NCBI RefSeq assembly: GCF_014874095.1
Contig: NZ_JADBEB010000001.1
Span: 1,860,001-1,924,000 of the forward strand
Origin: Plantactinospora soyae
Lineage (GTDB): Bacteria; Actinomycetota; Actinomycetes; Mycobacteriales; Micromonosporaceae
Length of the DNA: 64,000 bases
Direction of reading: 5' to 3'
Both the position numbers and the translations under genes were made by a program. Positions 5,008 through 15,555 of the stretch are shown piece by piece. Under the pieces are notes generated by a model. It searched no databases. It saw only the letters and a list, made by a program, of their open reading frames with translations, and was not told the DNA's origin. Numbering within the stretch: position 1 is the stretch's first letter; every line of letters begins with the position of its first letter.

Positions 5008-5793
5008 ATGGGGATGTCAGCGAGCGAGTTTCTGTTATGGGAGTTGCGCCGCCGACGGGAGGCTGAGGGGCTCAGCCAGGACGAGTGGGGTTCTCGCGTC
5101 TACTTCTCTCCGCAGCACGTCAGCGCCGTCGAGCGCGGCACCCGGCCAGCGAAGGCGGACTATCTCGGTGCCGTCGACAAAGAGTTCGGCACGTCGCTGG
5201 CGGTCTTCTACGAGACCTTCGTCAAGAACGAACTCGCACCAGCCTGGTTGCGCCCCTGGCTGGAGTACGAAGAGAAGGCCGTCGCCCTTCGGCTGTACGG
5301 CACCCTGGTCATCCCCGGACTGTTCCAGACCGAGCGGTACGCACGGATGGTCCTGTCGTCCGGGCCGCTCCAGCCCGACGAGGTGGAGCGCAGCGTACAA
5401 CTTCGAATGAGTCGCCAGTCTATTCTTGACCGGAAAGACCCACCGCAGTTCTCGTGTCTCGTCGAGGAACTGACACTCCGGCGCGGAGAGTCGGACGTTC
5501 TGCCGGAGCAACTGCGACACCTCGTCGCGCTGGCCGAACGACCGAACATCACCATCCAGGTCATTCCGGTGGACGCCCCGGCACACCTCGGCTGGGGCGG
5601 CCCTCTGGAACTCGCGAGTTTCATCGACGGTGAGGATGTCGGCTACCTGGACAACCATCTCGAAGGGCAGACGGTGACCAGTCCGAACCAGATCGCCACG
5701 CTGGGTACGGTCTGGGACAGTGTCGGCGCGGTCGCACTGCCCGCCCGCCAATCCCTGAACCTCATCAAGGAAGTGGCAAACTCATGGAGCTGA
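5008..5793 (+). CDS. Helix-turn-helix regulator with DUF5753 domain
   Basis: A 261-residue XRE-type regulator. The N-terminal helix-turn-helix covers residues 3-65 (LLWELRRRREAEGLSQDEWGSRVYFSPQHVSAVERG), and the rest is the DUF5753 domain (GTLVIPGLFQTERYARMVL, LRHLVALAERPNITIQVIP, near the end VWDSVGAVAL). This architecture is typical of the abundant actinobacterial regulators paired with DUF397 proteins. The ATG at 5008 has a GGAG 7 bases upstream. The 3' end overlaps the next gene by 10 bp. By family analogy the two proteins act together in developmental or stress control; the target is unknown. Confidence 0.92.
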   Translation: MGMSASEFLLWELRRRREAEGLSQDEWGSRVYFSPQHVSAVERGTRPAKADYLGAVDKEFGTSLAVFYETFVKNELAPAWLRPWLEYEEKAVALRLYGTLVIPGLFQTERYARMVLSSGPLQPDEVERSVQLRMSRQSILDRKDPPQFSCLVEELTLRRGESDVLPEQLRHLVALAERPNITIQVIPVDAPAHLGWGGPLELASFIDGEDVGYLDNHLEGQTVTSPNQIATLGTVWDSVGAVALPARQSLNLIKEVANSWS

Positions 5794-5975
5794 CCGACGC
5801 CGCCTGGCACAAGAGCACCCGTTCCACTCCGAATGGCGGAAGTTGTGTCGAGGTCGCGGGCAACCTGCCCGGCCGGGTGCTGGTCCGCGACACCAAGGAC
5901 CGCGACGGCGGCACCCTGACCTTCACCCCCACCGCCTGGCACACCTTCGTCACCGAGATCGGACAGCGGCCGTAA
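5784..5975 (+). CDS. DUF397 domain protein
   Basis: A 63-residue protein matching DUF397 over its full length: TDAAWHKSTRSTPNGGSCVEVA, then VLVRDTKDRDGGTLTFTPTAW and the ending FVTEIG. It overlaps the preceding DUF5753 regulator by 10 bp, so translation is likely coupled. DUF397 proteins usually sit beside such regulators and are thought to antagonise or modify them; that role here is inferred from context. Confidence 0.92.
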   Translation: MELTDAAWHKSTRSTPNGGSCVEVAGNLPGRVLVRDTKDRDGGTLTFTPTAWHTFVTEIGQRP

Positions 5976-6003
5976 CACCAATCGAGGACCCGACGGGTAC
6001 GAG

Positions 6004-6405
6004 CTACCAATCCCGCCAGTCGTCGGTGATCTCCGAGACGTGGATGCCCCGTCGAGAGGCGAGCGCGTCGACATCGACCCGGGCCTCCCGGAGCGAGGCT
6101 TCGATGTAGGCGCAGAGCATTTCCCGCTCATCGGTCTCGTACGCCGCGCCTTCGTACCTGTCGTTGACCTCGTTCAGCGCCAACACGGTCCGCTCGATGA
6201 CGCCGAACACCTCCTCGTCCACCGGTGGTTCGGCCCAGCGGATCTCGGCCTCGAAGGCGGCGAGGACCTCGTCCGTCTCCGAAAGCATCGGCTCCGGGAA
6301 CAGCTGGGTGGCGTACGCCTTCTCGGGATCGAGCCTCCCGGCGGCAAGCTCAGCCGCCTCCTCCGCGACTTGTTGCCGCCAGTTGTCAGATGGTCGCTCA
6401 GCCAT
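6004..6405 (-). CDS. Hypothetical acidic helical protein
   Basis: A 133-residue soluble protein rich in Glu, Asp and Ala with predicted helices ([61 protein letters not shown]). No catalytic motif or membrane segment is seen and no family was recognised. It ends in DWRDW. The start MAERPS at 6405 is preferred to one 11 codons upstream, whose leader looks unconserved. It is convergent with the DUF397 gene, 28 bp away. Confidence 0.6.
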   Translation of the reverse strand: MAERPSDNWRQQVAEEAAELAAGRLDPEKAYATQLFPEPMLSETDEVLAAFEAEIRWAEPPVDEEVFGVIERTVLALNEVNDRYEGAAYETDEREMLCAYIEASLREARVDVDALASRRGIHVSEITDDWRDW

Positions 6406-6465
6406 CGGGCGATGGTAGTTCGGCCCTCCGACACCCATCCCGACGGTTGTGTAACTGAACCAGCA

Positions 6466-6840
6466 CTAGTCGAGGCAGGGGCGGGCAAAGGCCGTGGCCT
6501 GCGGTCGTACCCGGAACAGGACGACGTGTCCGGCCGCGTCACGGAACTCCGCCTCGGTGGCCGAGACGGCCTGCATGGTGCCGATCTGATTGGGATTGCT
6601 CCAACCTGCCGGCGGGTTCCCCTGGCCGTCGGAAAGCGGCTTGAGCGCCTCGTAGTAGCGGCCCTCGAAGGTCGTCTCGTCGATTCCGCAGTGCGTGCGT
6701 AAGGAGAACGTCACGGCCTCGGATGTCCCGCCCTGGCCCGCCGTTGCCGCGGGCGCTCCGGCTGACTCGCCGGAAGGCGCGCATCCGGCCGTCGCCAACA
6801 ACATCACCACGGCCGTCACCAGCGCGCTGTCTCGTCTCAT
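6466..6840 (-). CDS. Putative lipoprotein of unknown function
   Basis: A 124-residue protein with a lipoprotein signal: MRRDSALVTAVVML followed by the lipobox L-A-T-A-G-C, so Cys20 would be lipidated and the protein anchored outside the membrane. A Ser/Ala/Gly-rich linker follows, then a small domain beginning near FSLRTHCGIDETTFEGRYYEAL and ending FRVRPQATAFARPCLD. The two remaining cysteines (CGIDE and PCLD) could form a disulfide. This arrangement is common in small actinobacterial lipoproteins of unknown function. Confidence 0.75.
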   Translation of the reverse strand: MRRDSALVTAVVMLLATAGCAPSGESAGAPAATAGQGGTSEAVTFSLRTHCGIDETTFEGRYYEALKPLSDGQGNPPAGWSNPNQIGTMQAVSATEAEFRDAAGHVVLFRVRPQATAFARPCLD

Positions 6841-6908
6841 CCCGCCCCCTTGGTCGAAGACCGATGGGACGCGGGCAGCCCGCCCCCGGTTCCTCCGTCT
6901 ACCCGCTC

Positions 6909-7418
6909 TCAGGTGTGGAACTGCTGTCCGTGCAGTTCGATGGGACCCTCGCGGGTGCCGGGCGAGGACCGGAGTTCGACGGTCAACTCGATCGCGGAGA
7001 GTACGTCGTAGCCGGCGCCGCGCAGGCAGCGCAGCGCCTCCACGTTGCGGGACTGCGGCTTGACGGTGAGCCGGGCGAGGCCGCGTCGGCGGGCCTGACC
7101 CGCGACCTCGTCGAGCAGTGCCCGGCCGATCCCCTGGCCCCGGAGGCGGGCGGTGACGACCACGGGTTCGATCCGGCCGACCCGACCATCCATGATCAGC
7201 CCGATCAGCCCGACCACTCCGGCGTCTGGCTGCTCGGCGACCCAGACTCCGGAGAGGTCGAGCCGGGTCAGGTACTCCTCGAATCCGGCACCGGGATCGG
7301 CACCGCCGAAGTTCGGGTCGTCGTACAGCTCGCGGTGCTGCTCGGCCAGTTCCACCCAGAGTTGCCGGCCGGCCCGATGGTCGGACGGCCGGTACGGTCG
7401 GATCGCCGTAGCGGTCAT
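6909..7418 (-). CDS. GNAT family N-acetyltransferase
   Basis: A 169-residue acetyltransferase of the GNAT fold. The acetyl-CoA binding motif A is clear: IEPVVVTARLRGQGIGRALLDEVAGQARRRG split around the R-G-Q-G-I-G loop, followed by motif B around NVEALRCLRGAGYDVL. The N-terminal part (MTATAIRPYRPSDHRAGRQLW) is the usual substrate-side region. Substrate is unknown. It is divergent from the fructosamine-kinase-like gene. Confidence 0.87.
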   Translation of the reverse strand: MTATAIRPYRPSDHRAGRQLWVELAEQHRELYDDPNFGGADPGAGFEEYLTRLDLSGVWVAEQPDAGVVGLIGLIMDGRVGRIEPVVVTARLRGQGIGRALLDEVAGQARRRGLARLTVKPQSRNVEALRCLRGAGYDVLSAIELTVELRSSPGTREGPIELHGQQFHT

Positions 7419-7486
7419 AGGCTCATATCTACTCCGGATCGCCTCCGCGCGACACCCGCTTGCCCAAGAACAGCTACCTTGCGCAG

Positions 7487-8377
7487 ATGGACCTGGCGTA
7501 TCTCCGGGCGCATCCCGCGCAGCTCCCCCTGTTTCTCACCCATCAGCGGATCCGGGAGACGCCGGTCTCGGGCGGGAACATCTGCACCGCCAGCCGGCTG
7601 ACCCTCGACGACGGCAACTCGGTGTTCGCCAAATCCTGGCCGGAAAAGGCCGCGAGCGGCGTACCCGAGAGTTTTTTCAGCACCGAGGCCGCCGGGCTGC
7701 GCTGGCTGCGGGAGGCGGACGCCGTTGCGGTCCCGGAGGTGATCGTGGCGCTGCCCGACCTGCTGGCGCTGGAGTGGGTGGAGCCGGGCGCGGCGACCCC
7801 GGAGGCGGCGCGGCGGTTCGGTACCGACCTGGCGGCGCTGCACCGGGCCGGTGCCCCGGCCTTCGGCGCGGACCGGCCGGGCTTCATCGGGATGCTGCCG
7901 CAGGACAACACCCCGTCCGACGGCCCCTGGCCGGGCTGGTTCGCGCAGCGCCGGCTCGCGCCCTACCTGCGGCGGTCGGTCGACGCCACCGCGCTCTCCG
8001 CGACCGAGGTCACCCTGGTGGAGCAGGTCATCGCCCGGATAGACGAGTACGGCGGTGCCGAGCCGCCGGCCCGGATCCACGGCGACCTGTGGCCGGGCAA
8101 CGTGCTCTGGGGCGCCGACGGACGGGCCTGGCTGGTCGACCCGGCGGCACACGGCGGACACCGGGAGACCGACCTCGCCCAGCTCGCCCTCTTCGGCGGC
8201 GCACCCCACCTGGCGGAGATCCTGGCGACGTACCAGGAGGTGTGGCCGCTCGCCGACGGATGGCGGGAGCGGGTCCCGGTACACCAGTTGCACCTGCTGC
8301 TCGTGCACACCGCGTTGTTCGGCGCCGGATATCGAGATGCGGTAGGTAGGGCGGCTCGCGCCGCACTGTCGGTGTGA
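7487..8377 (+). CDS. Fructosamine-kinase / aminoglycoside phosphotransferase-fold kinase
   Basis: A 296-residue protein kinase-fold small-molecule kinase. N-terminal ATP lobe: PVSGGNICTASRLTLDDGNSVFAKSW. Catalytic loop: ARIHGDLWPGNVLW; metal-binding loop: WLVDPAAHGGHRETDLA. The HGDLWPGN plus DPA-x-x-GHRE-x-D pattern matches the fructosamine-kinase/YniA family, which repairs glycated protein lysines, rather than antibiotic-modifying APH enzymes. The ATG at 7487 is preferred to a TTG nine codons upstream. The stop overlaps a possible GTG start of the following moaA reading frame, so the two genes are probably cotranscribed. Confidence 0.82.
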   Translation: MDLAYLRAHPAQLPLFLTHQRIRETPVSGGNICTASRLTLDDGNSVFAKSWPEKAASGVPESFFSTEAAGLRWLREADAVAVPEVIVALPDLLALEWVEPGAATPEAARRFGTDLAALHRAGAPAFGADRPGFIGMLPQDNTPSDGPWPGWFAQRRLAPYLRRSVDATALSATEVTLVEQVIARIDEYGGAEPPARIHGDLWPGNVLWGADGRAWLVDPAAHGGHRETDLAQLALFGGAPHLAEILATYQEVWPLADGWRERVPVHQLHLLLVHTALFGAGYRDAVGRAARAALSV

Positions 8378-9711: not shown

Positions 9712-11121
9712 TTGTCCGGGCTGCTGGGCTTCGCTGGCACGTTGGCGCTGGTCACCGGACTGATCCATCTCTACCTCTGGAAGCGACTGGTCCGGGACAC
9801 CACCCGCCCCGGGCGCTGGCGCCGGGCCGGCGGGGTGACGATCCTGGTGCTGGCCCTGCTCACCCCGGCCACCCTGGTCGGCACCCGGGAGGGCTTCTAC
9901 TGGCTGGCCTGGCCGGGCTACCTCTGGCTCGCCGTCATGTTCTACCTGCTCGTCCTGATGGTGACGCTGGAGCTGCCGATGCTGGTGGTCCGGCTGACGC
10001 TCGGCCGACGGACCCGGGCGGCCGTACCCGCCGTACCCGTGTTGGCGGCCCCGACCGGCACCGAGACCAGCGGCACGGAGACCGGCGGCACGCCGGCCAC
10101 GGCCGGCGAAGTGACGGGTGCGGCCGGCGAAGTGACGGGTGCGGCCGGCGAAGCGACGGTGGCGGGCCGCGACGCGACGGGTGCGGGCCGCGACGCGACG
10201 GTGGCGGCCGGCCCCGCGAGCGCGGCGGCGGCGGAGCCGCCGGTGCCGACCACGCCGGCCACGCCCGGGATGCCGGACCATGACCCCGGTCGACGGCTGC
10301 TGCTCGCCCGGGGAGCGGCGATCTTCTCCGGACTCACCGCCACCGGGCTCGTCGGGTACGGGGTCCGGACCGCGCTCGGCCCGCCACAGATCGACCGGGT
10401 CCAGATCCCGCTGGCCAAGCTCCCCCGGAGCATGGACGGGCTGCGGATCGCCACCGTCTCGGACATCCACATCGGACCACTGGCCGGTCGGGCGCACACC
10501 GAGCGGGTCGTGGCGACCATCAACCGGCTCGACGCCGACGTGGTGGCGGTGGTCGGTGACCTCGTCGACGGCACGGTGGGCGAACTCGGCGACGCCGCCG
10601 CACCCCTGCGCGACCTGCGCGCCCGGTACGGCAGTTTCTTCGTCACCGGCAACCACGAGTACTACTCCGGGGTCGAGGAGTGGGTGGTCGAGATCGACCG
10701 GCTCGGGCTGCGGGTGCTCCAGAACCGGCGCCAGGAGATCCTGGCCCGGGGCGGCGTCCTCGACCTGGCCGGCGTGAACGACCCGGCCGGCGAGGGCCTC
10801 GGCGTCGCGGCCGGCCCCGACTTCGACGCGGCGCTGGGCGGCCGGGATCCGGGGCGGCCGGTAGTGCTTCTCGCGCACCAGCCGATCAACGTGTACGAGG
10901 CGGCGAAGCACGGCGTCGACCTCCAGCTCTCCGGGCACACCCACGGCGGGCAGATCGTGCCGTTCAGTTACCTGGTCGGATTGCAGCAGCCGGTCGTCTC
11001 CGGGCACGCCACCATCGACGGCACCCAGCTCTACGTCACCAACGGCGCCGGCTTCTGGGGCCCACCGGTCCGGGTCGGCGCACCACCGCAGGTGACCCTG
11101 GTCGAGCTGCGCTCGGGGTAA
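9712..11121 (+). CDS. Membrane-anchored metallophosphoesterase
   Basis: A 469-residue protein with an N-terminal membrane domain (hydrophobic segments near residues 4-22, 40-58 and 68-92), a low-complexity linker, a further hydrophobic stretch near 195-218, and a C-terminal calcineurin-like phosphoesterase. The metal-binding motifs are in order: VSDIHIG, VVGDLVDG, GNHEYY, LAHQP and SGHTHGGQ. This matches the YkuE/YaeI-type phosphoesterases, some of which act on lipid substrates; that specificity is inferred. It starts at a TTG with a purine-rich GAGGGGCGGAG just upstream and follows moaD by 11 bp. The linker contains five 7-residue repeats (see repeat entry). Confidence 0.88.
   Translation: MSGLLGFAGTLALVTGLIHLYLWKRLVRDTTRPGRWRRAGGVTILVLALLTPATLVGTREGFYWLAWPGYLWLAVMFYLLVLMVTLELPMLVVRLTLGRRTRAAVPAVPVLAAPTGTETSGTETGGTPATAGEVTGAAGEVTGAAGEATVAGRDATGAGRDATVAAGPASAAAAEPPVPTTPATPGMPDHDPGRRLLLARGAAIFSGLTATGLVGYGVRTALGPPQIDRVQIPLAKLPRSMDGLRIATVSDIHIGPLAGRAHTERVVATINRLDADVVAVVGDLVDGTVGELGDAAAPLRDLRARYGSFFVTGNHEYYSGVEEWVVEIDRLGLRVLQNRRQEILARGGVLDLAGVNDPAGEGLGVAAGPDFDAALGGRDPGRPVVLLAHQPINVYEAAKHGVDLQLSGHTHGGQIVPFSYLVGLQQPVVSGHATIDGTQLYVTNGAGFWGPPVRVGAPPQVTLVELRSG
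10102..10206 (+). repeat. 21-bp tandem repeat inside the metallophosphoesterase linker
   Basis: Five units of 21 bp. The first two are identical (10102-10122, 10123-10143) and the rest diverge. They encode A-G-E-V-T-G-A twice, then A-G-E-A-T-V-A, G-R-D-A-T-G-A and G-R-D-A-T-V-A. They lie in the disordered linker between the membrane and catalytic domains; copy number is expected to vary among strains. Confidence 0.85.
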
Positions 11122-11165
11122 GGAAGGGCCCCTTCCTATCGCTTTCCGTATAGGAAGGGCCCCCT
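11121..11165. repeat. AGGAAGGGCCCC-type palindromic repeat
   Basis: A hairpin starting on the last base of the metallophosphoesterase stop codon. CCCTTCCTAT (11130-11139) pairs perfectly with ATAGGAAGGG (11150-11159) around a 10-base loop; the left flank AGGAAGGG repeats the same core. From general knowledge of Micromonosporaceae genomes, elements of this pattern are dispersed in many intergenic regions. It may act as a terminator for the upstream gene. Confidence 0.7.
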
Positions 11166-11186
11166 GTTAACACCCCAGGCCGGCGG

Positions 11187-14100
11187 GTGCGGAATCACAC
11201 TCTCGCGTGGCGACACGCGCTCGCGTACCGGCCCATGACAGGATGCGGCGTGTCTCCGTTGCGCGCCGCACCCGCTGACGGCTCCCTTTCCGGCGCCGTG
11301 CCCTTCGTCGCGGACCTGCACATCCACTCGAAATACTCGCGAGCCTGCAGCCGTGACCTCACGATGCCGAACCTCGCCTGGTGGGCCCGGCGCAAGGGGA
11401 TCAGCCTGCTCGGTACCGGTGACTTCACCCATCCCGCCTGGTACGAGCACCTGCGCGAGTCGCTGCGTCCGGCCGAGCCCGGCCTGTACCGGCTCGATCC
11501 GGAGGTCGAGCGGGACATCGCCCGCCGGCTGCCACCCCGGCTGGCCAGCGTGGCCGAGGCCAATCCGGTGCGGTACGCGCTCAGTGTGGAAATCTCCACC
11601 ATCTACAAGCGAGACGACCGGACCCGCAAGGTGCACCACCTGATCTACCTACCCGACCTGGACGCGGTGGCCCGGTTCAACGCCGTACTCGGCCGGATCG
11701 GCAACATCGGTTCCGACGGCCGGCCGATCCTCGGACTGGATTCCCGGGACCTGCTGGAAATCGTCCTGGAGGCGAGCCCGGACGGCTACCTGGTGCCGGC
11801 GCACATCTGGACCCCGTGGTTCTCCGCGCTCGGCTCGAAGTCCGGCTTCGACGCGATCGCGGACTGCTACGCCGACCTCGCCGAGCACATCTTCGCGGTC
11901 GAGACCGGGCTCTCCTCCGACCCCGCGATGAACTGGCGGGTATCCAGCCTGGACCGCTACCGGCTGGTCTCCAACTCCGACGCACACTCGCCGCCGGCAC
12001 TGGCCCGGGAGGCGACGGTCTTCGCCACCGAACTGGACTACTTCGCGGTACGGGAGGCGCTGCGTACCGGGGACGGGCTGCGGGGCACGATCGAGTTCTT
12101 CCCGGAGGAGGGCAAGTACCACGCCGACGGGCACCGGCTGTGCGGCGTCAACTGGGCGCCGGAGCGTACCCGGCAGGCGGGCGGGCGCTGCCCCGAGTGC
12201 GGCAAGCCGCTCACGGTCGGCGTACTGAGTCGGGTCGAGGACCTGGCCGACCGGCCGGACGGGCACGTGCCGACCGGCGCCCCCGGGGTGACCCACCTGA
12301 TCCAGCTCGCCGAGATCCTGGGCGAGATCAACAGCGTCGGGCCGAAGTCGAAGACGGTCGAGGGACAGCTCAACACCCTGGTCGCCGGGCTCGGCTCCGA
12401 GCTGGACATCCTCACCGTCACCCCGGTCGACGAGATCCGGCGGGTCGGCGGCGAACTGATCGCCGAGGCGGTCGAGCGGCTGCGTCGGGGACAGGTCCGC
12501 CGGACACCCGGCTACGACGGCGAGTACGGCGTGATCACCCTCTTCGAGCCCGGTGAGCTTCCCGGCTCGGGGGGCGGGCACCAGGCCGACACGCTCTTCG
12601 CCGACGCGCTGTTCGACGTACCGGTGCCCCGGCCGCGCGCGTCGACGGAGCCGAAGACGCCCGCGAAGGCGCGTACCGCCCCGGCGCCGGCCACCCCGCC
12701 GGAGCCTCGCCGCCGGTCCCGGGCCAGTGCACCGGCGGCCGAGCCCGCGCCGCCGCTCGCCCCGCCACCGTCGCCGCACGAGCCGTTCGAGCCGATGCTC
12801 GCCGGGATGGAGGAGGTCGGCACCGGGCTGCTCGACCGGCTCGACGCGATGCAGCGGGTCGCCGCCTCCGCGCCGGGCGGGCCGCTGCTGATCGTCGCCG
12901 GCCCGGGTACGGGCAAGACCCGCACCCTGACCCACCGGATCGCGTACCTCTGCGCCGAGCTGAACGTCTATCCGGAGCACTGCCTCGCGATTACCTTCAC
13001 CCGGCGGGCCGCCGAGGAGCTGCGTACCCGGTTGGACGGGCTGCTCGGGCCGGTCGCCGAGGACGTCACGGTCGGCACCTTCCACTCGCTCGGCCTTGGC
13101 ATCCTGCGGGAGAACACCCGCGCCGCCGGCCTGCCGGACGACTTCCGGATCGCCGACGACCTCGAACGGGCGACCGCCCGGGCGGAGGCCGGCGACGACG
13201 ACGCGACGTACGTCAAGCTGCTCCGCGCCGCCGACCTGGTCGACCTGGACGAGTTGGTGACCCTGCCGGTGGCGCTGCTGCGCGACGATCCGGCGCTGGT
13301 CGAGCGGTACCGGGACCGCTGGCGGTGGATCTTCGTCGACGAGTACCAGGACGTGGACGCCACCCAGTACGAACTGCTCCGGCTGCTCAGCCCGGCGGAC
13401 GGCAACCTCTGCGCGATCGGCGACCCGGACCAGGCGATCTACTCGTTCCGGGGCGCCGACGTCGCGTACTTCCTGCGCTTCTCGGCGGACTTCGTCGACG
13501 CCCGGCTGGTCCGACTGACCCGCAACTACCGGTCGTCCGCGCCGATCCTGGCCGCCGCCGTGCAGGCCATCGCGCCGACCACGCTGGTCCGCGGCCGGCG
13601 GCTCGACCCGGCCCGGCTGGACCCGGAGGCGCCGCTGGTCGGCCGCTATCCCGCCGCCTCCGTCGCGGACGAGGCCGACTTCGTGGTACGCACCGTCGAC
13701 GAACTCGTCGGCGGGTTGTCGCACCGGTCCCTGGACTCGGGGCGGATCGACGGCCGGTCGACCGAGGTGTCGTTCTCCGACATCGCGGTGCTGTACCGGA
13801 CCGACGCCCAGGCGGCGCCGATCCTGGACGCGCTGGCCCGGGCGAACATCCCGGTGCAGAAGCGCTCGCACAACCGGCTGCGGGACCGGCCCGGCGTATC
13901 GGTGATCACCCGGGAGCTCCGGCACGCCGACGGGCTCGGTGGCTCGGTCGCCGCCCGGGTACGGCTGGCCGGGCAGGTACTCGCCGAGCGGCACGCCGCG
14001 CCCACCCTGGACGCGACCGGCGGCGTCGGCCCGGACGACATCTGGGCGGCGGCGGAGGTGCTCACCCCGCTGGCCTGGCGCTGCGGCGACGACCTGACGC

Positions 14101-14492
14101 TGTTCCTCTCCCAGGTGTCGACCGGGGCCGAGGTCGACGCGCTCGACCCCCGGGCGGAGGCGGTCACCCTGCTCACCCTGCACGCCGCCAAGGGCCTGGA
14201 GTTCCCGGTGGTCTTCCTGCCGGGGTGCGAGGACGGGCTGCTGCCACTGCGGTTCCCCGGCTCGACCCCGAGCGAGGACGACGTGGCGGAGGAGCGCCGG
14301 CTGTTCTTCGTGGGGCTGACCCGGGCGCAGGACCGGCTCTATCTCAGCCACGTGGGCCGACGACTGCGGTACGGCCAGGAGCGGGACTGCGTACCGTCGC
14401 CGTTCCTGACCTCGATCGACGCCGGGCTGTTCGAGCGGCTCGGCGACACCGCCCCACGCCGTCCGAAGGACCGCCAGCTACGGCTGATGTGA
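11187..14492 (+). CDS. Endonuclease-Q-like PHP nuclease fused to a UvrD/Rep-type SF1 helicase
   Basis: An 1101-residue two-part protein. Residues about 40-455 match endonuclease Q, which nicks DNA 5' of deaminated bases and abasic sites. PHP metal ligands are all visible: ADLHIHSKYSR (44-47), GTGDFTHP (77-83), SVEIS, KVHHLIYLP, VPAHIWTPW and SNSDAHSP (262-269). Then come a cysteine-rich segment with C319, C335 and C338, and the family's closing GYDGEYGVITLF. A Pro/Ala linker (about 460-535) leads to a complete SF1A helicase: AGPGTGKT (571-578), FVDEYQDVDATQ, GDPDQAIYSFRGA, LTRNYRSS, LHAAKGLEFPVVFLPG and FFVGLTRAQDRLYLS. The GTG at 11187 is the longest start; ATG 11235 is likely too. Inferred role: recognition and unwinding of deaminated DNA in repair. 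Confidence 0.88.
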   Translation: MRNHTLAWRHALAYRPMTGCGVSPLRAAPADGSLSGAVPFVADLHIHSKYSRACSRDLTMPNLAWWARRKGISLLGTGDFTHPAWYEHLRESLRPAEPGLYRLDPEVERDIARRLPPRLASVAEANPVRYALSVEISTIYKRDDRTRKVHHLIYLPDLDAVARFNAVLGRIGNIGSDGRPILGLDSRDLLEIVLEASPDGYLVPAHIWTPWFSALGSKSGFDAIADCYADLAEHIFAVETGLSSDPAMNWRVSSLDRYRLVSNSDAHSPPALAREATVFATELDYFAVREALRTGDGLRGTIEFFPEEGKYHADGHRLCGVNWAPERTRQAGGRCPECGKPLTVGVLSRVEDLADRPDGHVPTGAPGVTHLIQLAEILGEINSVGPKSKTVEGQLNTLVAGLGSELDILTVTPVDEIRRVGGELIAEAVERLRRGQVRRTPGYDGEYGVITLFEPGELPGSGGGHQADTLFADALFDVPVPRPRASTEPKTPAKARTAPAPATPPEPRRRSRASAPAAEPAPPLAPPPSPHEPFEPMLAGMEEVGTGLLDRLDAMQRVAASAPGGPLLIVAGPGTGKTRTLTHRIAYLCAELNVYPEHCLAITFTRRAAEELRTRLDGLLGPVAEDVTVGTFHSLGLGILRENTRAAGLPDDFRIADDLERATARAEAGDDDATYVKLLRAADLVDLDELVTLPVALLRDDPALVERYRDRWRWIFVDEYQDVDATQYELLRLLSPADGNLCAIGDPDQAIYSFRGADVAYFLRFSADFVDARLVRLTRNYRSSAPILAAAVQAIAPTTLVRGRRLDPARLDPEAPLVGRYPAASVADEADFVVRTVDELVGGLSHRSLDSGRIDGRSTEVSFSDIAVLYRTDAQAAPILDALARANIPVQKRSHNRLRDRPGVSVITRELRHADGLGGSVAARVRLAGQVLAERHAAPTLDATGGVGPDDIWAAAEVLTPLAWRCGDDLTLFLSQVSTGAEVDALDPRAEAVTLLTLHAAKGLEFPVVFLPGCEDGLLPLRFPGSTPSEDDVAEERRLFFVGLTRAQDRLYLSHVGRRLRYGQERDCVPSPFLTSIDAGLFERLGDTAPRRPKDRQLRLM

Positions 14493-14577
14493 CCGGCCGG
14501 CTGCCGGTCGCTCGTTCATGACCGCCCGGCTACCGGTCGCTCGTTCATGACCGGGCGGCTCGCGGTCGCTCGGTCGA
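14491..14577. repeat. 29-bp tandem repeat, three copies
   Basis: Three imperfect 29-bp units beginning at 14491, 14520 and 14549 (core CCGGTCGCTCGTTCATGACC). They fill the short gap after the EndoQ-helicase stop and run into the last codons of the convergent DMT transporter gene, so part of its C-terminus (E-R-P-R-A-A-R-S) is repeat-encoded. Confidence 0.75.
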
Positions 14578-15555
14578 CACGACCAGCGCCACGCCGACCA
14601 CGATCACCGCTCCGCCGAGCAGCACCTGCCCGGAGACCGGCTCGGCGAGCAGCAACGCGCCGAGCGTGACCGCGACCACGGGGTTCACGTAGGCGTACGT
14701 CGCCACCAGCGAGATCGGCGCATGGTGCAGCAGCCAGACGTACGCGGTGAAGGCGACGAGTGAGCCGGCCACGGTGAGGTAGCCGAGCGCCAGCCACGAT
14801 CGGGTGGAGACGCCGGCCAGGTCGAGGCCGCGCGACTCGCCCCGGGCCACACCGAGTACGGCCAGCGCGGCGGAGCCGGCGAGCATCTCGTACACGGTGG
14901 CGACGAACGGGTCCGCCGGCATGCTGAGCCGGCCGGAGAGGAACGACCCGACGGACCAGGAGACGGACCCGCCGACCACGATCAGCGCCCCGACGATCGG
15001 CGCCGCACCGTCGCCACCGGTCGGCAGCACCAGCAGGACCAGCCCGACGAAGCCCACGCTGACGCCGAGCAGGGTGGGCAGGCGCGGCCGGTCGCCGGTG
15101 CCCGCCCGGAGCAGCACCACCAGGAGGGGCACGATGGCGACGAAGAGGGCCGCCACCCCGGAGGAGACCGCGATCGAGGGCGGTAGCGATTCGGCCAGCA
15201 CCACTCCGCCGTTACCACCGGCGAGCAGGAGGACTCCGACCAGCGCGGCCGAACCCAACTGGCGCCGGTTCACCCGCAGCCCGCCCGGACCACGCCGGAG
15301 TCGGAGCACCAGCGCGAGCAGCGCGGCGGCGACCGCGAACCGGGCCGCCGCCGAGAGCAGCGACGGAAGGGTCTCCACCGTGATCCGGATTCCGAGGTAG
15401 GTGGAGCCCCAGACGACGTACACGATGGCCAGGGCGACCCAGATCAGCGCCGCCCGGTTCGGCGCCCCGGCGACGGAACCGGTCGACCCCGCCGGCTGGC
15501 CGACCGGGGCGGCGCGAGCAGGCAGGATTGGCGCGGTTCCGGGAGGTGAGCTCAT
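14545..15555 (-). CDS. DMT superfamily transporter (EamA family)
   Basis: A 336-residue integral membrane protein with about ten hydrophobic segments arranged as two EamA halves, beginning IWVALAIVYVVWGSTYLGIRI (the family's first helix) and ending in a last helix around VLLGGAVIVVGVALVVS. EamA carriers export metabolites or amino acids; the substrate cannot be assigned. The start ATG lies at 15553-15555. It is divergent from the first LppU-like gene with 85 bp between starts, and convergent with the EndoQ-helicase gene. Confidence 0.9.
   Translation of the reverse strand: MSSPPGTAPILPARAAPVGQPAGSTGSVAGAPNRAALIWVALAIVYVVWGSTYLGIRITVETLPSLLSAAARFAVAAALLALVLRLRRGPGGLRVNRRQLGSAALVGVLLLAGGNGGVVLAESLPPSIAVSSGVAALFVAIVPLLVVLLRAGTGDRPRLPTLLGVSVGFVGLVLLVLPTGGDGAAPIVGALIVVGGSVSWSVGSFLSGRLSMPADPFVATVYEMLAGSAALAVLGVARGESRGLDLAGVSTRSWLALGYLTVAGSLVAFTAYVWLLHHAPISLVATYAYVNPVVAVTLGALLLAEPVSGQVLLGGAVIVVGVALVVSTERPRAARS

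Follow-up and report, generated by a model that had tools for sequence, protein, structure and literature searches.

Endonuclease Q (EndoQ) repair has so far been studied mainly as archaeal single-domain nicking, and the step that follows the nick has only been proposed. The C-terminus of archaeal EndoQ binds PCNA, which stimulates the enzyme, and beta-clamp consensus sequences are noted in the bacterial EndoQs (PMC4858679). Here, we describe a gene in a 64,000-nucleotide stretch of Plantactinospora soyae (contig NZ_JADBEB010000001.1, positions 1,860,001 to 1,924,000; hereafter the window) whose product joins an EndoQ domain, a flexible linker, a PcrA/UvrD-type superfamily 1A (SF1A) helicase, and a clamp-binding-like C-terminal motif in one chain (Table 1). 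Taken singly, none of EndoQ, the SF1A helicase, and the clamp motif is new; their conserved three-part combination is. As the original prediction had it, no functional description of such a fusion was found in the open-access literature; most subscription journals lay outside this scope, so absence from print does not follow. None of the NCBIfam or Pfam models matched covers the fused architecture. We read the protein as a clamp-tethered "nick, then unwind" repair enzyme, a reading to which we assign a probability of about 0.6.

The N-terminal half matches PfuEndoQ (5zb8) over residues 42–452, with E = 8e-45 for the whole protein and 4.7e-46 for its first 500 residues; no Pfam model matched the N-terminal 500 residues at E ≤ 0.001. 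The TIGR00375 match of this half (155.6 bits) is significant but below the cut-off of 326.6, a curator's threshold that we did not count as defining EndoQ. All 14 members of a family alignment (A1) match the model, and its cut-off was reached in 0/246 Actinomycetota and 0/196 Planctomycetota genomes. An AlphaFold2 model built on 53 sequences (mean predicted local distance difference test score, pLDDT, 83.6; predicted template-modeling score 0.56) contains two confident halves with a disordered linker between them, and Foldseek searches with this predicted model returned both the EndoQ and the UvrD/PcrA families. PfuEndoQ folds were matched at TM(target) 0.86–0.88 with a root-mean-square deviation (rmsd) of 2.6–3.2 Å; for 5zb8 the values were 0.87–0.88 and 2.6 Å over ~420 columns, indicating that the EndoQ fold is present at whole length.

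Residue conservation was followed across the window and the best 80 loci of at least 587 relatives (590 stretches), giving 81 rows; 48 of the 80 loci are Micromonosporaceae. Published catalytic and pocket residues of PfuEndoQ (PMC4357722, PMC8307549) were mapped onto this alignment, in which one locus without an EndoQ half (L075) leaves 80 rows. The equivalents of D6, H10, E76, H84, H139, E167, S191, D192, and H194, the SDAH motif included, are identical in 80/80 rows; the match of E76 to E135 rests on the family alignment, PfuEndoQ 67–77 being absent from the printed pairwise one. In PfuEndoQ, a pocket gate formed by H139, G169, and S171 shuts out T and A (PMC8307549), and its counterparts H206, G241, and S243 are likewise invariant in all 80 rows. 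The zinc ribbon is present as HxxC...CxxC, with C319, C335, and C338 in every row and the first ligand, H316, in 79. A Cys-to-His zinc ligand was ruled out as a mark of the fusion, because the same HCCC set occurs in 8 of 15 standalone EndoQs. Judged by sequence and predicted structure together, the N-terminal half is an EndoQ, not a generic PHP phosphatase, and incision at deaminated bases is predicted. The full EndoQ pattern that the original prediction had proposed is thus borne out (E = 4.7e-46, TM ~0.87, catalytic and gate residues conserved), and so is its division of the protein, with EndoQ in the N-terminal half and UvrD/PcrA in the C-terminal one.

Residues 547–1085 match PcrA/UvrD (Pfam UvrD-helicase, 4e-62; PcrA 1pjr, E = 1.5e-78), and the top Foldseek matches are UvrD/PcrA structures (E = 6e-42). 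The original prediction had spoken of a complete SF1A helicase. This is right for the motifs: the checked residues of Walker A and B, QxxR, VLYR, TLHxxKGLE, and VGxTRA are kept in 81/81 rows, or in 80 with one gap. It is not right for subdomains 1B and 2B, which pairwise alignment with PcrA shows to be shortened, to 15 residues vs. 61 in 1B and to 60 vs. 133 in 2B. Outside Micromonosporaceae 1B is longer, the median for alignment columns 644–688 being 75 vs. 45. Because of these shortened subdomains and a PcrA equivalog score of 367 bits against a cut-off of 911 (the score is far below the UvrD and Rep cut-offs as well), we call this half PcrA/UvrD-type and assign it to neither PcrA nor UvrD proper. 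The GGx[ST]xxS insertion in 2A is not found in the genome's own helicase frames L082, L083, L087, and L088, of which the last two are cut by the locus end. In Rep, 2B is autoinhibitory, and in UvrD it mediates dimers (PMC13238157); its reduction therefore suggests another mode of motor control in the fused protein.

The C-terminal tail, flexible in the predicted model (pLDDT < 50 for residues 1093–1101), ends in a conserved motif that the original prediction does not mention. Within their final 25 residues, 73/81 rows contain QLxL[FLMI] and 76/81 a looser pattern; the other five rows comprise a frame change (L031), two contig ends (L048 and L063), and the variants QETLF (L060) and QRTLF (L064). 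Controls gave far lower rates. The motif falls in the last 10 residues of 72/81 rows vs. 2 of 1,780 flanking open reading frames (ORFs) of at least 200 residues, which are stop-to-stop frames with real and spurious ones mixed; QLxL[FLMI] occurred in 110 of 16,200 shuffled tails and in 0 of 3,364 25-residue segments taken from elsewhere in these proteins. It is lacking in the own-genome helicase paralogues L082 and L083, the two with C-termini fully in view. Four of 15 standalone EndoQ loci (L120, L121, L122, and L124, corresponding to genes L100, L101, L102, and L106) end in QM[KRN][LM]F, and QLSLF is named in papers on clamp motifs. The tag probably docks the protein on the replication clamp, a putative interaction that the motif and its conservation point to. 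On the downstream side of the fused gene, ~87 kb away, is the genome's only match to a beta-clamp C-terminal domain (G000:C1:1961296-1961667); the fused gene may therefore be near the replication origin. A DUF72 protein close to the fused gene in one relative (L070, 1910–3241) also ends in QLRLL.

The linker joining the halves is rich in proline and alanine (35 of the 78 residues from 468 to 545). It holds a Leu-Phe pair, L475-F476 (12609–12614), that is column-invariant in the 14 rows of alignment A1; an LF stands no more than ~45 residues after the EndoQ core in 77/81 fused rows, a count with no chance control. Some standalone EndoQs end in QMxLF near the position of this pair, which may be a remnant or a second docking site.

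The fusion is widespread. The original prediction had placed EndoQ in Thermococcales and a few bacteria, a range that proves too narrow: within the GTDB family of P. soyae, the EndoQ half occurs in 126/150 genomes and 37/42 genera, as a single match in 124 of these 126 genomes and mostly in fused-size frames, and fused loci span ~9 phyla among the best 80 listed. Four of the family's best hits are short open frames (464–750 residues, G309 among them), and in G309 and G325 EndoQ stands without the helicase half. Elsewhere the gene was found in 7/246 genomes of an Actinomycetota sample, two of the matches being weak, and in 21/196 Planctomycetota genomes, where 7 frames reach at least 1,058 residues, 13 are standalone-sized, and one match is weak. 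Outside Actinomycetota, 20/22 loci are labelled as metagenome-assembled genomes (MAGs), so contamination is possible; L048, from a "Proteobacteria" MAG, groups near Actinomycetota. Both halves lie within one open frame in 78/80 loci, with the frame reaching the contig end in L048 and L063. The exceptions are L031, with a frame change near residue 943, and L075 (Micromonospora sp. 15K316), which carries the helicase half only (5743–7782, matching query residues 523–1101). No EndoQ match was found in ~6 kb of sequence upstream of the latter, whose state would reflect a deletion or a misassembly.

Mapped onto an EndoQ tree of 66 rows, the fused and standalone states require three changes (bootstrap range 3–5), and the starred branches force at least two. 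The tree fits one gain of the fusion followed by two losses, one in L112 and one in L125 and L126. PfuEndoQ, the outgroup, and a divergent Planctomycetota clade sit on long branches, and the root is therefore unsure. The three exceptions, L112 and the pair L125 and L126 (same family, group g179), hold EndoQ alone among fused forms, end soon after the EndoQ core, and represent apparent helicase loss. The Planctomycetota clade (L113–L119) consists of standalone EndoQ-like proteins at 28–32% identity, with a different zinc region and Gln for H82 in 4/7. A cognate helicase acting in trans for standalone EndoQ was rejected for the genomes examined: nine of ten standalone-EndoQ genomes hold helicases of PcrA-level similarity only, the level of own-genome PcrA-type paralogues, and none was matched in the tenth (G473). 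Both halves are under purifying selection, with ratios of nonsynonymous to synonymous substitution (dN/dS) of 0.145 for EndoQ, 0.162 for the linker, and 0.173 for the helicase against L050, and of 0.067 for EndoQ and 0.087 for the helicase against L099. By its distribution across these sequences, the fusion is old and present in many bacteria.

The fused gene is found alongside conventional base-repair genes. The own genome has five matches to the uracil-DNA glycosylase (UDG) superfamily and one EndoV, and UDG was found in 23/24 other fused genomes, the exception being a Gastranaerophilales MAG; a role for the fused protein as UDG replacement was ruled out on these counts. The rationale that high-GC genomes suffer heavy cytosine deamination, offered in the original prediction, carries little weight: GC across the 80 loci ranges from 32% to 76%, with four below 50%, and Actinomycetota are mostly without the gene (7/246).

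The 9.7-Mb single-contig genome holds one full-length copy of the fused gene, whose closest relative among the best matches listed is L050 from Plantactinospora endophytica (89% identity). Its start, first placed at 11187, is probably the GTG at 11250. Across Micromonosporaceae rows (window included), AGGAT lies 5–7 bases 5′ of an in-frame GTG or ATG in 42/48, with a variant in 5; L033 has neither, and L075 gave no data. Among 10 other Actinomycetota loci the element is present in three, variant in three, and absent in four, and the open frames of L019 and L020 start only near residue 13 of the longer ORF. In the window, the GTG following the −10-like element stands at 11250, and the protein is therefore probably 1080 residues long, translated from an mRNA that is probably leaderless. 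A generic sigma-70 scan of 11000–14700 gave no promoter, and Rfam and tRNA scans of the window gave no match. A palindrome-like repeated stretch (aggaagggcccc...) at 11122–11165, between the metallophosphoesterase gene and the fused gene, was not seen in the L050 alignment.

Table 1. Features of the fused gene in the window (residues are numbered from the start of the 1101-residue ORF)
Feature	Coordinates	Strand	Remarks
ORF as first called	11187-14492	+	1101 residues; GTG start; no internal stop
Probable true coding sequence	11250-14492	+	1080 residues; GTG start is residue 22 of the ORF as first called
−10-like element CAGGAT	11239-11244	+	5 bases 5′ of GTG 11250; putative leaderless promoter
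EndoQ domain (residues 41-455)	11307-12551	+	PHP catalytic part, zinc ribbon H316-C319-C335-C338, C-terminal part
Equivalents of PfuEndoQ D6/H8/H10/E76/H84			D43/H45/H47/E135/H150
Equivalents of PfuEndoQ H139/E167/S191/D192/H194			H206/E239/S264/D265/H267
Disordered Pro/Ala-rich linker (residues 456-546)	12552-12824	+	pLDDT < 50 over most of 462-545
SF1A UvrD/PcrA-type helicase (residues 547-1092)	12825-14462	+	All motifs; shortened 1B and 2B
2A insertion VGGxSxxSxDSGR preceding motif IV (residues 841-853)	13707-13745	+	GGx[ST]xxS in 73/81 rows
Clamp-binding-like pentapeptide QLRLM (residues 1097-1101)	14475-14489	+	Chain end RQLRLM

Six window neighbors scanned against Pfam matched Metallophos, Radical_SAM/Mob_synth_C, fructosamine kinase, EamA, and AAA_16, with one lacking a match; neither GajA nor another partner nuclease was among them. 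The metallophosphoesterase gene is found in 43 of 46 Micromonosporaceae loci with more than 3 kb upstream. Neighboring ORFs of at least 150 residues were clustered for 36 loci, 4 of them in Micromonosporaceae and 32 elsewhere. Judged by representative coordinates, the largest of the top 25 clusters seem to be frames that overlap the fused gene; next comes an ABC-type ATPase, in 6 loci, and the rest hold no more than 4 loci. Clusters beyond the fused-gene frames being this small, no operon partner shared across phyla was seen among the 25 largest in these 36 loci. Searches of viral_contigs, plasmids, and phages found no relatives; the viral scan used two peptide patterns, and none of the 69 stretches matched was confirmed as a relative. 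A mobile or phage origin was rejected on these searches.

From the two domains, their conserved catalytic residues, the terminal motif, and the distribution, we infer the activities, the clamp binding, and an order of events. The C-terminal QLxL[FLMI] peptide would dock on the beta clamp. The EndoQ pocket would then receive a flipped-out uracil, hypoxanthine, xanthine, or abasic site, and this half would cut just 5′ of the lesion, leaving a 3′-OH and a 5′-phosphate; conserved catalytic and gate residues point to this step, its activity being modelled on PfuEndoQ and the Bacillus enzymes. Aided by the flexible linker, the helicase would load at the nick, travel 3′ to 5′ along the intact strand, and peel off the 5′ strand that bears the lesion, with a direction taken from the SF1A family and a presumed choice of strand. 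A polymerase would fill in from the 3′-OH, the flap would be removed, and the nick ligated. By analogy with Rep lacking 2B, a motor with so reduced a 2B may be under weaker autoinhibition and depend on EndoQ or the clamp for its control. That incision is coupled to unwinding, as the original prediction also envisaged, is plausible on these sequences.

The order could also be reversed, with the motor moving along or opening single-stranded DNA near a fork or transcription bubbles and carrying EndoQ along as a sensor to scan the exposed strands and cut their deaminated bases. PfuEndoQ cuts uracil and hypoxanthine well in single-stranded DNA (PMC11354406), where deamination is faster (PMC6202378) and along which SF1A monomers translocate 3′ to 5′ (PMC13238157), and a clamp-like motif fits this order too; no sequence feature separates the two. 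A cut in single-stranded DNA at a fork is, however, a break, dangerous without added control, and we consider the reversed order unlikely. A different lesion specificity would place the EndoQ fold on another structure or lesion, for example on apurinic/apyrimidinic (AP) sites or oxidized pyrimidines only, instead of on deaminated bases. EndoQ does act on both of these (PMC8307549, PMC11354406), UDGs are present in these genomes, and the zinc site is unlike that of PfuEndoQ; set against the uracil- and hypoxanthine-selective gate, invariant in 80/80 rows, this specificity appears distinctly unlikely.

A Gabija-like nuclease-helicase attacking phage or foreign DNA in which uracil or some other unusual base occurs is suggested by the top PADLOC matches of the full-length protein, which are GajB models (1e-68), and by a review proposing that Bacillus EndoQ may take part in antiviral defense (PMC8307549). 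The GajB match is confined to the helicase part, and the EndoQ half has no PADLOC match. The EndoQ half is also kept throughout most of the family (126/150 genomes, one match in 124), beside neighbors that are not defense genes by Pfam and are largely kept in Micromonosporaceae. The clusters hold no widely shared cross-phylum neighbor, defense genes at distant loci not being searched by model, and the phages, plasmids, and viral contigs searched yielded no copies; we therefore regard a defense role as very unlikely. Simple coexpression of a nuclease and a helicase that do not act together would accommodate the helicase-less descendants L112, L125, and L126, which keep EndoQ in genomes with PcrA-level helicases only, and L075, with its helicase half alone. 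A fusion found in ~9 phyla with few losses on the tree, motifs intact in both halves, and a clamp-like motif at the far end of the helicase make that chance next to negligible.

Several observations weigh against the clamp-tethered nick-then-unwind enzyme that we favor. The H8 equivalent (H45) is His in 78/80 rows and Gln in L065 and L076, and His takes the place of the PfuEndoQ Cys as first zinc ligand. The beta-clamp consensus is QL[SD]LF; exactly this form occurs in only 7/81 rows, the Micromonosporaceae motif QLRL[ILM] is weaker, and 11 of 15 standalone EndoQs have no QMxLF-type end. A nick alone offers an SF1A helicase little single strand for loading, and reduced 1B and 2B could mean weak unwinding instead of freer motor action. 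With UDG and EndoV encoded by the same genome, it is hard to see a role unique to the fused protein, and we know of no activity, clamp binding, or phenotype for any fused protein. A more far-reaching version of the favored reading—a widespread, clamp-docked, replication-linked incision-and-displacement repair beside the glycosylases, its motor released from 2B autoinhibition and under the control of the nuclease—is tentative, and we hold it at somewhat less than even odds.

The fused helicase suggests what follows EndoQ nicking, and the clamp-like tag suggests when. With a PCNA motif in archaeal EndoQ and a beta-clamp-like motif in the fusion, both C-terminal, clamp coupling can be tested as a general property of EndoQ, and the short 2B is a natural testing ground for the 2B-autoinhibition model of UvrD-family helicases.

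Against known systems, the fused protein shares with PfuEndoQ (PF1551) and archaeal EndoQ the whole fold, the metal ligands, the SDAH motif, the uracil/hypoxanthine gate, a zinc ribbon, and a C-terminal clamp motif, whereas those enzymes are standalone, of ~400 residues, without a helicase, with a CCCC zinc site (PfuEndoQ), and with a PCNA-interacting (PIP) box in place of a beta-clamp-like motif. Bacterial standalone EndoQs, known from Bacillus pumilus and B. subtilis and compared here in Planctomycetota, share the EndoQ domain, and the Planctomycetota standalones L100–L102 and L106 share HCCC zinc ligands and have a QM[KRN][LM]F end; unlike the fusion, which carries its motif at the helicase end, they have neither helicase nor linker. 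PcrA, UvrD, and UvrD1 have all the SF1A motifs in common with the helicase half at ~30% identity in Foldseek alignments, from which the latter departs by ~46 fewer residues in 1B and 73 fewer in 2B than PcrA and by the GGxSxxS insertion. Gabija GajA/GajB, AddAB, AdnAB, and RecBCD share the idea of a nuclease with an SF1A motor and a weak helicase similarity, and their nucleases are unrelated to EndoQ.

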